Assembly: GCA_028711995.1 (NCBI GenBank) | Contig: JAQTRE010000006.1 | Location: 1 to 54,718, forward strand | From: Dehalococcoidia bacterium | Lineage (GTDB): Bacteria > Chloroflexota > Dehalococcoidia > SZUA-161 > SpSt-899 | Reading direction: 5' to 3' | Length of the DNA stretch: 54,718 nucleotides | Part shown: positions 4,528 to 50,343 of the stretch, in pieces | Numbering within the stretch: position 1 is the first letter of the stretch | Layout of the letters: every line of letters starts with the position of its first letter | Notes under the pieces: model-generated | What the model saw: only the letters and a program-made list of their open reading frames with translations | What the model was told of the DNA's origin: nothing | The model's database searches: none | Translations under genes and position numbers: made by a program

Positions 4528-4546
4528 GAATGCATCTCCTCTATCT

Positions 4547-4581
4547 GTCATTGCGAGCCCTGGAAGGGCGTGGCAATCTCC
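4547..4581. repeat. Short intergenic repeat of the GTCATTGCGAG...GGCAATCTC type
   Basis: The sequence starts GTCATTGCGAG and ends GGCAATCTCC around a small GCCCTGGAAGGGC hairpin. Repeats with these ends are widespread in unrelated bacterial genomes. It sits immediately upstream of the TusA-like gene and next to a triple-hairpin repeat. Only one copy is visible in the window. Confidence 0.45.
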
Positions 4582-4590
4582 ATTGATTAC

Positions 4591-4712
4591 CTCACCCCCT
4601 CGATCCCCCTCTCCTCAAGGAGCGGGGGAAGAAAAAGAAACTTGGGGGACACCCCCAAACCCCCGATCGAGGTCGAGGGCGGGCCTCCGGCAGAGGGAAA
4701 GCCCTCTGCACA
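4591..4712. repeat. Triple-hairpin repeat, copy B (variant)
   Basis: The same three-hairpin layout as copy A with changed stems. Hairpin 1 is enlarged (CTCCT-ca-AGGAG inside flanking C/G runs). Hairpin 2 is TTGGGGG-ACA-CCCCCAA (4642-4658). Hairpin 3 is GCAGAGGG-aaag-CCCTCTGC (4690-4709), two base pairs longer than in copy A with both arms changed together. The rest of the 4713-4862 gap shows no gene. Confidence 0.8.
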
Positions 4713-4862
4713 CCCTGACAACTGATCTTAGATTCCCCGTCACTCCGCTGAAGGCCGGAGTCTATACCAATATTAGAGGGTATCCCTGTCTCCTATACTC
4801 TCTCGAAGGGCGATCACAGGGAATCTCCCCTACCGACAATTGATAACTGGTGTTCACTGATC

Positions 4863-27065: not shown

Positions 27066-28316
27066 CTATTTCCCAACCGGAGTAAGCTTGCCATCTTTGA
27101 ACTGCATCATATGTCCTGCGTTGGTGTGAGTGCCATCAGGATTGATTTTGAACGGCCCCCCTGGTGCATCATTCCACATCAGATTGCCCGAGCGGGCCGC
27201 CTTCGCTATATCCTCAGGCTTATCCGATCGGGCCAACTCTATGGCCTTCAGGGCCATCTCAGGAGCATAATACAGAACAGCATCGTTTGTACTGGGGTCA
27301 CGTCCGGCTGTCTCCGGAAAGCTTTGCTCAAATTCTTGAGACCCCGCATAAGGCAACCCGGGCCCCCATACAACCCAATGGTAAGAGCCTTCGGCTCCCT
27401 TTTCCTTCAAGGCAGTGCCGCTTGAAGACACGCTGGAGCCGACAACCTTAATATCGCCCCAGCCGCCCAGTTCTGGCATCTGCTTGAACACATTAACATA
27501 GAAACTCTCAGTACCACCGCTATCTGCAATAAGGACATCGGGTTTTTCCATCCTGATGCGGGTAAGGAAGGACGAGAAGTCTATGGTGCCGGAAGTGACG
27601 TATTCTTCGTAGACAACCTTTATCCCGGCTGCATTGGCTATTCCCTTCATCTGAGATCCACGTGTACGTATCTCTTGCATATCCCCCATAAGAAAGCCCA
27701 TTGTTTTAGGTTTGAGATCATTCACTGCAAAATCCATCACCATATTTGTGGCACTGGACATATTGGGATAGACGCAGCGTATGGTGTACGGCCTGTTGCT
27801 CAGATCCGCTGGGGTAGAACCTACACTGAACAACGGCACTTTAAGCTCTTCCGCGGAATCGGAGGAGGCCGTGAGAGCGGATGCTGTTGCCCCGCCATAA
27901 ATCACTGCCGAAACTTTATCTTCCAGCACCAGTTTCTTATAGCCGGACGTATTATCGGCTACCTGAGTCTTGTCATCATACTTGATCCATTTGACGGGCC
28001 TTATCACTCCCCCGACATTAATGCCTCCCTTCTTCTCCAATTCCTTGTCCACCACCTTTAATACCCCGTCAACAAGGAGGCCCGCAATGCCTGCCGGACC
28101 GCTCCAGCTGCAAAGAACGCCGATCTTTATCGGCTCCTGGGAAATCGTCGGTGCAAGTGTTGTTGCCCCAGGAGTCGTTTCTGCAGGTGTTGTTGCCATC
28201 GATGCGGCGGATTCTACTTCATCATCGTCATCACAGGCGACCAGAGCAGGCATTAAAAGTGCCAGAACCAAGACTATCGCTGCCAGTTTGTACCATGGAA
28301 TACTTCTGGTTCGCAT
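27066..28316 (-). CDS. Branched-chain-amino-acid-type substrate-binding lipoprotein 1
   Basis: A 416-residue periplasmic-binding-fold protein of the LivK/Peripla_BP_6 type. The signal peptide ends LMPALVAC, then CDDDDE and a Thr/Ala/Pro linker. The mature domain starts IKIGVLCSWSGPAGIAG and includes GGINVGGVIRPVKW and YGGATASALTASSDSAEE. No permease or ATPase gene is adjacent, so it either works with a transporter elsewhere or acts as a sensor. GGAGGACAGCG precedes the ATG. A 17-residue leader ORF lies just upstream. It is a clear tandem paralogue of the protein at 28835-30082. Confidence 0.9.
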   Translation of the reverse strand: MRTRSIPWYKLAAIVLVLALLMPALVACDDDDEVESAASMATTPAETTPGATTLAPTISQEPIKIGVLCSWSGPAGIAGLLVDGVLKVVDKELEKKGGINVGGVIRPVKWIKYDDKTQVADNTSGYKKLVLEDKVSAVIYGGATASALTASSDSAEELKVPLFSVGSTPADLSNRPYTIRCVYPNMSSATNMVMDFAVNDLKPKTMGFLMGDMQEIRTRGSQMKGIANAAGIKVVYEEYVTSGTIDFSSFLTRIRMEKPDVLIADSGGTESFYVNVFKQMPELGGWGDIKVVGSSVSSSGTALKEKGAEGSYHWVVWGPGLPYAGSQEFEQSFPETAGRDPSTNDAVLYYAPEMALKAIELARSDKPEDIAKAARSGNLMWNDAPGGPFKINPDGTHTNAGHMMQFKDGKLTPVGK

Positions 28317-28346
28317 CGCTGTCCTCCTTATAGTTTATGCTGTTAC

Positions 28347-28400
28347 TCAGGTGTACACCGAATAGCATCCAAAGCAGGTTTTGTTGCGATGTCGTCTCAT
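28347..28400 (-). CDS. Putative leader peptide MRRHRNKTCFGCYSVYT
   Basis: A 17-residue ORF ending 30 bp before the binding-protein 1 start. AGGAGGTGA lies upstream (AGGAGG 14 bases before the ATG). The counterpart upstream of binding protein 2 encodes a 19-residue peptide sharing the start MRRHRN and the end SVYT. Between copies the changes include synonymous third-base changes, conservative replacements and a 6-base in-frame indel. Non-triplet indels occur just outside the ORF. That pattern supports translation. Arg-rich start and Cys pair are conserved. A regulatory leader role is inferred. Confidence 0.55.
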   Translation of the reverse strand: MRRHRNKTCFGCYSVYT

Positions 28401-28754
28401 CCTGTGTCGTTTCACCTCCTCATTTTGATCAACTCCTCTGCCAAGGCTCCAGCACATCGACCGCTTATCCCTAACACATTTGACAATCGAGCATCATCAC
28501 TCGGAGATTTCGGCAACTACCGCATTCCTCAATCTCTTCTGTGCAGCTAACTTTAACCCAGTCTCATGAAACCGACTCTTCCGCGTTGCCTCCTTTCAGG
28601 GCATATGCCCCTTGTTCAGGCCCAAGGGCTCAAGACTGCGGATTTTCCTTCTTCCCCCTGTTCTGGCTGGTTTTGGATTAGTTTCAGGTATGTGGCCTCC
28701 ATAATTGCTATTGTTTTTCATGGAGACACCGATCAACTCAAGATGGCTTCTTGC
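28401..28754 (-). promoter_or_regulatory. Conserved leader and promoter region of binding protein 1
   Basis: About 130 bases next to the leader ORF (28401-28550) match the corresponding region above binding protein 2 closely, including ATCAAAATGAGGAGGTGA and GAGTGATGATGCTCGATTGT (copy 1 reads CGAGTGATGATGCTCGATTG). The part from 28560 to 28754 is not shared and has no gene. Promoter hexamers are not obvious. Confidence 0.5.
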
Positions 28755-28803
28755 GTGGGAGCACATTGACACCTTCTTGATAGAGGACTCAATGTGCTCC
28801 CAC
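28755..28803 (-). terminator. Hairpin after substrate-binding protein 2
   Basis: A perfect 15-bp stem (GTGGGAGCACATTGA and complement), 31 bp after the gene. The loop contains TTCTTGAT as in the hairpin at 26989-27033. The stems differ at many paired positions yet both pair fully. Confidence 0.7.
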
Positions 28804-28834
28804 AGACATTCCCGATAGTTCAACGGAAAAACAA

Positions 28835-30082
28835 CTACTCCCCAACCGAGATAAGCTTTCCATCCTTGACCTGCATCATATGGCCTGTGTTATTGTGAAT
28901 GCCATCTGCAGTGATCGTGAACGGTCCACCCGGTGCATCCTCCCACAAAAAGTTGCCCGAGCGGGCCGCCTTCGCTATATCCGCAGGCTTATCAGAGCCG
29001 GCCAATTCTATGGCCTTCAGGGCCACGCTCAGAGGATAATACATATTAACATCGACTGTTTGGACGCGTTTCCCTAATACCGCCTCGTAGGCTTGCTCAA
29101 ACGCTTTGGCCCCGGCATAAGGCAATCCAGGCGCCCATAGAACCCAATGATAAGAGCCTTCGGCTCCCGCCTTATTCTCTAAGGAATTCAAGGCATTGCC
29201 ACCTGAAGCCGAACTGGGGCTCACCAACTTGATATTGCCCCAGCCGCCCAGTGCAGGCATCTGCGTGTAGAGATTGATATAGAAAGTCTCAGACCCTCCA
29301 CTGTCAGCAAAAAGCACATCGGGATTATCCATCCTGATGCGGGTGAGGAAAGGGGAGAAGTCAACAGTTCCAGATGTAACGAACTGTTCGTAGACAACCT
29401 TTACCCCGGCTGCGCTACACCTTTCCTTCATCATGGATGTCCGGTCACGCGTCTCTTTCATGTCCCCCACAAGAAAGCCCACCGTCTTGGGCTTAAGATC
29501 CTTCAGCACAAAGTCCATCACCATCGTTGACGCACTGAACAGATTCGGCATCAAACAGCGTATGGTGTAAGGCCTGTTGCTCAGGTCCGCAGGGGTGGAT
29601 CCTAAGCTGAACAATGGTACATGGAGTTCTTCCGCGGAATCGGAAGCGGCGGTAAGACTGGTTGCGGTTGCCCCACCAAAAACCACTGCTGATACATGAT
29701 CATCTAGTACCAGCTTCTTGTAACCAGCCACATTATCGGCCACCTGAGTCTTATCGTCGTACCTGACCCACTCGATTGGCCTTATCACGCCACCAACATT
29801 GATGCCTCCCTCCATCTTCATTTCGTTGTCTACCAACTTAATTAAGGTGTCGGCCGTGGTGCCGGCGATGCTTGCCGGACCGGTCCACGACATAAGAATT
29901 CCGATCTTTACCGGCTCCTTGGAGACAGTCGCTGCAGGGGTTGTCTTTTCCAGCGTGGTCGTTGATGGCATTGTAGCGTCCTCTTCATCATCGTCATCAC
30001 AGGCAACCAGAGCGGGCATCAAAAGTGCCAGAACCAAAACCATCGCTGCCAGTTTGTGCCATCGAATATTTCTGGATCGCAT
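28835..30082 (-). CDS. Branched-chain-amino-acid-type substrate-binding lipoprotein 2
   Basis: A 415-residue paralogue of the protein at 27066-28316. The signal peptide is of the same design (LALLMPALVAC, CDDDDEEDAT). The mature domain starts VKIGILMSWTGPASIAG and shares GGINVGGVIRPIEWVRYDDK. The ligand cleft regions differ (VSPSSASGGNAL against VGSSVSSSGTAL), so ligands may differ. It has its own leader ORF, conserved upstream region and hairpin. CoA-transferase 2 is the next gene upstream. No membrane components are nearby. Confidence 0.9.
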   Translation of the reverse strand: MRSRNIRWHKLAAMVLVLALLMPALVACDDDDEEDATMPSTTTLEKTTPAATVSKEPVKIGILMSWTGPASIAGTTADTLIKLVDNEMKMEGGINVGGVIRPIEWVRYDDKTQVADNVAGYKKLVLDDHVSAVVFGGATATSLTAASDSAEELHVPLFSLGSTPADLSNRPYTIRCLMPNLFSASTMVMDFVLKDLKPKTVGFLVGDMKETRDRTSMMKERCSAAGVKVVYEQFVTSGTVDFSPFLTRIRMDNPDVLFADSGGSETFYINLYTQMPALGGWGNIKLVSPSSASGGNALNSLENKAGAEGSYHWVLWAPGLPYAGAKAFEQAYEAVLGKRVQTVDVNMYYPLSVALKAIELAGSDKPADIAKAARSGNFLWEDAPGGPFTITADGIHNNTGHMMQVKDGKLISVGE

Positions 30083-30112
30083 CGCTATCCTCCTTCACAC
30101 TTTGTGCTTTAC

Positions 30113-30172
30113 TCAGGTGTATACCGAATCGCATCCATAATCACGGCAGGTTCTGTTACGATGTCGTCTCAT
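30113..30172 (-). CDS. Putative leader peptide MRRHRNRTCRDYGCDSVYT
   Basis: A 19-residue ORF ending 30 bp before the binding-protein 2 start, with AGGAGGTGA upstream. It corresponds to the 17-residue ORF at 28347-28400. The difference is a two-codon insertion (CGT GAT) and mostly conservative or synonymous changes. Placement, stop codon and distance to the main gene are identical in both loci. The function is unknown; translational coupling or attenuation is the simplest idea. Confidence 0.55.
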   Translation of the reverse strand: MRRHRNRTCRDYGCDSVYT

Positions 30173-30512
30173 CCTATTTCTCTCACCTCCTCATTTTGAT
30201 CGACTCCTCTGCCCAGAGCTCCAGCACATCGACCACTTATCCCTAACACCTTCGACAATCGAGCATCATCACTCAGAGATTTCGGCAACTACCCTATCCT
30301 CAATCTTTTCCCTTCAAAAATGTGCTTAACGGAAATATAGGAAGAATCAGACCTCTTTCTGCACCGTGCCAGTCCTTTTCGTCCGCCGGACAAAGATCAC
30401 ATCTCTCACCTCTCCTACAGCCCGTCCCTCGCCCACGTTCTCATGTGATTTTGGAGCATGGGAATATCCAAGACCCAGACTGGCACCTGCGCTACTCAAC
30501 CTCCATCTACTT
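30173..30512 (-). promoter_or_regulatory. Conserved leader and promoter region of binding protein 2
   Basis: Bases 30173-30305 match the upstream region of binding protein 1, ending near GGATAGGGTAGTTGCCGAAA on the minus strand. Bases 30310-30512 are unique, contain no convincing gene and separate this locus from CoA-transferase 2. Confidence 0.5.
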
Positions 30513-50091: not shown

Positions 50092-50343
50092 CTTCATCCT
50101 CCTTTCGGCTCTTCTTGTTTGCGGGGGATTGATTATATATCCACAAGCCGCTAAAGTCAACAGTGAGTCTCTTCCAGCACCAGATGAGCTTGAAGGGAGG
50201 GCCGATTTTCATCGGCCTCAAGCGCCGTCAAATGGGCAGGTAATCGGTCCCAGTTTCGAGTATCAAGTGGTACGATGCAGCCAGTGGTATCATATTTGCC
50301 GGGCTGCACTAACAGGCTGTTGAAAAAGAGGTGAAGGATTCCT

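Follow-up and report, generated by a model that had tools for sequence, protein, structure and literature searches.

A 16S rRNA-complementary box upstream of expanded lipoprotein genes in a Dehalococcoidia bacterium: candidate ribosome-binding element rather than start of a conserved leader peptide

Two genes for substrate-binding lipoproteins lie in tandem on the minus strand of the window, the whole 54,718-nucleotide stretch of Dehalococcoidia bacterium DNA analysed here, and each is preceded by a short open reading frame (ORF) whose product begins MRRHRN. The question raised by this locus is whether the two ORFs are translated leader peptides that regulate the downstream gene by coupling or attenuation, as proposed in an earlier note on this DNA, or whether a different part of the leader is the functional element. 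The features from which we began are listed below.

27066..28316, minus strand: substrate-binding lipoprotein gene (Peripla_BP_6), 416 aa
28835..30082, minus strand: substrate-binding lipoprotein gene (Peripla_BP_6), 415 aa; protein 68% identical to that of the first gene
28323..28327, minus strand: GGAGG core of the first gene's own Shine-Dalgarno sequence (AAGGAGGACAGCG-ATG)
30089..30093, minus strand: GGAGG core of the second gene's own Shine-Dalgarno sequence (AAGGAGGATAGCG-ATG)
28347..28400, minus strand: small ORF MRRHRNKTCFGCYSVYT, then stop; putatively coding; ATG 14 nt past GGAGG, end 30 bp before the gene ATG
30113..30172, minus strand: small ORF MRRHRNRTCRDYGCDSVYT, then stop; putatively coding; ATG 13 nt past GGAGG, end 30 bp before the gene ATG

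The two lipoprotein genes are paralogs within a larger set, in which gene starts were set by Shine-Dalgarno (SD) strength and the lipobox. Approximately 17–20 related paralogs are found in this 240-contig, 3.3-Mb assembly, and a genome from another genus of the same family (G003) has 54 Peripla_BP_6 matches in 4 Mb; in both genomes the substrate-binding lipoproteins are a large expansion. A class-wide A1 profile search returned close homologues from these two genomes only.

The earlier account of the ORF pair was accurate as a description. Both ORFs are present at the positions given, ATGAGGAGGTGA precedes each of them, and the distance from their ends to the lipoprotein gene ATGs at 28316 and 30082 is exactly 30 bp. 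The copies differ by five substitutions (CGC/CGT, AAA/AGA, TTT/TAT, TAT/GAT and GTG/GTA), synonymous and conservative changes among them, as well as by an in-frame indel of 6 bases; a further indel, of 1 base, lies in the spacer ahead of the leader ATG. If the ORFs were leader peptides, translated from the AGGAGGTG box and controlling the lipoprotein gene, the retention of frame, start and stop despite these changes, next to spacers that have diverged and acquired a non-triplet indel, would speak for them. The same can be said of the very strong SD-like box, from which initiation is possible at a spacing of 13–14 nt (the usual spacing is 5–9 nt), and of a pN (0.075) lower than pS (0.185) in the leader ORF.

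The wider alignment of the two copies places these observations in a common segment, given here for the first gene.

28220..28523, minus strand: 5′ block, from -207 to +96 relative to the first gene, ~91% identical to the second gene's block, with sharp homology edges

Identity along the copies rises from a random level (~38%) upstream to 92–94% at about -207, continues at ~91% to +96, and falls to 75% in the remainder of the gene; the exception inside the block is the diverged spacer before the gene start. For the first 33 codons, which encode the signal peptide, Ks is 0.19, versus 0.71 for the remaining gene (Fisher p 0.008). Such a pattern would be expected from gene conversion or from a partial re-duplication of the 5′ segment. 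Since the ~91% identity runs across the whole block, synonymous sites included, recent homogenisation explains the likeness of the two ORFs. Conservation of the leader ORF, with 5 differences in 51 positions, is no better than that of the non-coding DNA upstream of it in the block, with 9 in 101 (90% versus 91% identity, p 1.0), and it is the spacer from leader stop to gene start that is more divergent (12/33, p 0.005). When five random substitutions were simulated, the ORF stayed intact, start and stop included, in 49% of cases, so that an intact frame says little for coding. Ka is lower than Ks in the comparison that the earlier note had proposed (0.08/0.21), but these values derive from three and two changes, and a ratio built on five substitutions is uninformative. 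Leader codon usage is poorer than that of real genes, with scores of -0.17 and -0.30 versus 0.11 (sd 0.16), or 1.7 and 2.5 standard deviations under 18-codon segments of real genes. The suggestion that an early CGA codon is slow finds no support in its original form: CGA makes up 14% of arginine codons (797/5,660 in 455 kb sampled), and both tRNA-Arg(gcg) and tRNA-Arg(ccg) were seen in the part of the genome scanned.

The related genomes in which the earlier note had proposed to look for the leader yielded nothing comparable. The MRRHRN peptide occurs in no further paralog of this genome and had no match in a relevant place among 98 relatives, and the leader DNA had no convincing match in 59 relatives. 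Two weak leader-DNA matches in G003 were rejected because they appear to lie in coding DNA: one falls within an ORF, the other at the C-terminal end of one. Matches to an MRRHRN-type pattern in four other genomes did not exceed the number expected by chance, and the sole result from a scan of genome contigs was a distant Comamonas protein. The leaders had no match in Rfam, a search of the leader strand found no terminator in either leader region, and the leaders fold no better than shuffled sequences (z -0.64 and 0.01). With no other MRRHRN leader in the genome and no relevant or convincing match in relatives, evidence for coding is limited to one pair of copies. These findings remove most of the argument for translation of the MRRHRN ORFs. 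The ORFs may still be translated at a low level, but we think it unlikely that they are leader peptides through which the lipoprotein genes are controlled.

What withstood comparison from the earlier proposal was the ribosome-related box itself, which is conserved, enriched, and confined to the sense strand. Its two copies in the window are as follows.

28413..28420, minus strand: AGGAGGTG box at -104, strongly complementary to the 16S 3′ end (about -17.6 kcal/mol for the duplex)
30184..30191, minus strand: AGGAGGTG box, position -109

Besides the gene's own SD, 11/18 paralogs of this genome had the pattern [AG]GG[AG]GGTG at -60..-140, as did 7/50 Peripla_BP_6 genes of G003. Over the interval from -40 to -200, 12 of 17 paralogs of this genome carried the box, compared with 7/182 other genes (p 4.5e-11) and 4/219 coding windows (p 2e-13); on the reverse strand of the 17, no box was found in this interval. 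For G003 the controls were coding windows and the reverse strand, not the upstream regions of other genes; here the box preceded 8 of the 49 genes read, versus 5/584 coding windows (p 7e-7) and none on the reverse strand, and 7 of the 8 boxes fell at -75 to -124. An analysis in which no motif was preset gave the same answer: the commonest 7-mer at -140..-55 was GGAGGTG, in 17/65 genes and never on the reverse strand. Genes whose best site had at most one mismatch numbered 25 on the sense strand (13 exact, 12 with a single mismatch) and 0 on the reverse strand. In five of the 12, the mismatch is an A-to-G change facing U, by which pairing is kept. The anti-SD used in these comparisons, TGGATCACCTCCT, is this genome's own 16S 3′ end, and its duplex with the box is usually stronger than that with the same gene's own SD. 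When upstream regions of the paralogs were compared side by side, the sequences flanking the boxes were mostly unalignable, and this, together with the occurrence of the box in a second genus, argues against simple inheritance. The box is most simply read as an RNA site complementary to 16S rRNA, and not as an accident of one gene pair.

Alternatively, the box could act in DNA, as an operator or part of a promoter recognised by a regulator, and resemble an SD by accident. Its variable position relative to the gene would suit such an element, as would its intergenic location upstream of a paralogous gene family. Against it, the match to the anti-SD extends over 8 bases on the sense strand only, and the commonest box variants still pair with 16S rRNA. 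Nor did the box keep a constant distance from promoter-like hexamers. Of the alternatives considered here, we hold this one to be the least probable.

A box that pairs with 16S rRNA might still mark the start of short leader ORFs that differ from gene to gene, their sequence being irrelevant and translation itself keeping the leader open or coupled to the gene. ATG, GTG or TTG occurs 4–13 nt downstream of 11 of 22 boxes (kinship among the paralogs makes such counts partly non-independent, and truly independent boxes number fewer than 22), and the ORFs that follow are for the most part short and end ahead of the gene. The 11/22 is, however, the background level, since 44% of other leader positions are followed by a start codon in the same way (p 0.38); for ATG alone the figures are 7/22 versus 21% (p 0.17). 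For several boxes, namely those of L011(-71), L016, L079 and L096, the next 25 nt contain no start codon. The ORFs after boxes are unrelated in sequence and length, and most other box-bearing paralogs have none comparable to MRRHRN. We therefore consider translation of diverse leader ORFs quite unlikely as the role of the box. Because start codons are not enriched after boxes and the ORFs that follow them are unrelated, the MRRHRN ORFs, with their ATG 13–14 nt after the box, are best seen as two instances of whatever follows a box. Of the translated, coupling or attenuating leader peptide first proposed, the box stands; the peptide as a conserved element lacks support, given its absence from other paralogs and from any relevant place in 98 relatives, the retention of boxes with no usable start codon, the lack of a terminator in the leader regions, and folds no better than shuffles.

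The explanation that we favour, and to which we give about an even chance, is that the functional element is the box and not the MRRHRN peptide, the box acting as an untranslated 16S-pairing site in the manner of the STAB-SD of Bacillus. Its probable role is to stabilise the mRNA or to serve as a landing pad for ribosomes, and not to start a peptide. In this scheme the box in the mRNA would pair with the 3′ end of 16S rRNA, ~100 nt ahead of the site at which ribosomes bind to translate the gene itself, and a 30S subunit parked there would shield the 5′ end of the message, feed ribosomes to the true start, or both. Such an arrangement would suit abundant exported lipoproteins. A box that serves as a ribosome reservoir instead of a stabiliser is a possible variant. 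We infer that the box is included in the transcript, that it binds 30S subunits, and that it affects stability or expression. Among the points against are the absence of the strict box at -60..-140 from 43 of the 50 G003 genes, the ATG that follows the box at 13–14 nt in the two window genes, the kinship of the paralogs counted and, in predicted folds, an accessibility of the box no higher than that of other G-rich stretches. A promoter scan, moreover, gave scores upstream of boxes equal to those of shuffles and no consistent -10/-35.

Leader-peptide systems, including uORF attenuators and translational coupling, share with these leaders a short ORF placed between an SD-like site and the ribosome-binding site of the gene. 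They differ in that the peptide here is conserved in one gene pair only, that no terminator or switch structure was found, and that the box is not followed by an excess of start codons. In ermC, a drug-stalled ribosome occupies a leader ORF; nothing like it was seen here. The long-lived mRNA leaders of ermC and atpE (reviewed in PMC3997798) are nonetheless similar in that a strong SD in the 5′ leader gives protection to the entire message.

The closest parallel is the STAB-SD of Bacillus thuringiensis cry3A mRNA (PMC4113751, citing Agaisse and Lereclus 1996), an SD-like sequence ~100–130 nt upstream of the start that matches the 16S 3′ end and does not serve to start translation. In Bacillus, strong SDs that lack an initiation codon have a stabilising effect on mRNA (PMC3997798; PMC4113751). 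Here too an SD-like leader site complementary to the 16S 3′ end lies well upstream of the true ribosome-binding site, its place in the transcript being presumed. The anatomy also agrees in that, over all boxes, start codons show no association with the site, although both window copies have an ATG 13–14 nt after it. The systems differ in two respects. First, the box described here, with its extended motif AGGAGGTG, recurs over a large paralogous family. Second, the 30S subunit on a STAB-SD blocks RNase J1, whereas no RNase J scored above the TIGR00649 cut-off in this MAG, which is 96% complete; a weak beta-CASP-like match was the only candidate. We describe the box as working like a STAB-SD and do not claim it as a member of that class, because the place of the box in the transcript is presumed, no RNase J passed the cut-off, and a reservoir role is possible.

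These results move the focus from a two-copy peptide, which is beyond further comparative testing, to a short RNA box that is shared by many genes and is open to direct tests. Should 30S subunits bind the box and not begin translation there, an mRNA-protection trick of Bacillus and other Gram-positive bacteria would extend to a lineage that apparently has no recognisable RNase J, and a route to high expression for expanded families of binding proteins would be apparent. The results also urge caution, as a conserved AGGAGGTG with a nearby ATG can pass for a leader peptide. In this assembly (G000) the box also precedes genes for a membrane pyrophosphatase (PF03030) and for a protein of 715 aa that has a signal-like N-terminus and matches no Pfam family (L050:10906-13176 and L065:5158-7305, both minus strand, with boxes at -95 and -142). 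A broader reading would make a start-codon-free 16S-docking site the standard 5′ mark of the substrate-binding lipoprotein genes expanded in this bacterial family, together with a few other membrane or surface genes (the pyrophosphatase and an archaeal-type flagellin), with a reservoir or stabiliser function independent of RNase J. This generalisation is a doubtful but conceivable one.

The flagellin-type gene in G000 (L056:1749-2885, plus strand) encodes an archaeal-type flagellin N-terminal domain (PF01917), in an assembly whose other genes look bacterial, and has a GGGAGGTG box ~100 bp upstream. Both leaders in the window also contain a possible three-codon minigene, ATG AGG AGG TGA (M-R-R-stop; 28410-28450 and 30180-30222, minus strand), which has its own GAGGAG 9 nt upstream and overlaps the box.

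A repeated, G-rich element (GAGGAGAGGGGG..CGAGGGGGTGAGG, preceded by a T-rich run) lies ahead of several unrelated genes and resembles the box; GGGGGTGAG boxes before pyruvate-kinase-, mtnA- and tusA-like genes were set aside as part of this element. Sites of the element include L055, L066 and the region upstream of a small TusA-like gene on the minus strand, where the box is 74 bp before the start (reverse-complement position 50191, about 4530-4750 in the window). A class-wide two-SD pattern gave 36 matches for the family versus 2 in a backward control, but was not used as evidence because the class-wide matches that we opened lay within NfeD-like coding genes upstream of SPFH-like genes, names that we presume from our own reading of the translation. 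In six genomes of the class (L154-L159), the NfeD-like gene ends in a conserved EEV-ITK-GLKLxVxKK tail directly before the SPFH-like gene, and this tail mimics a leader ORF with a AGGAGGTG start.
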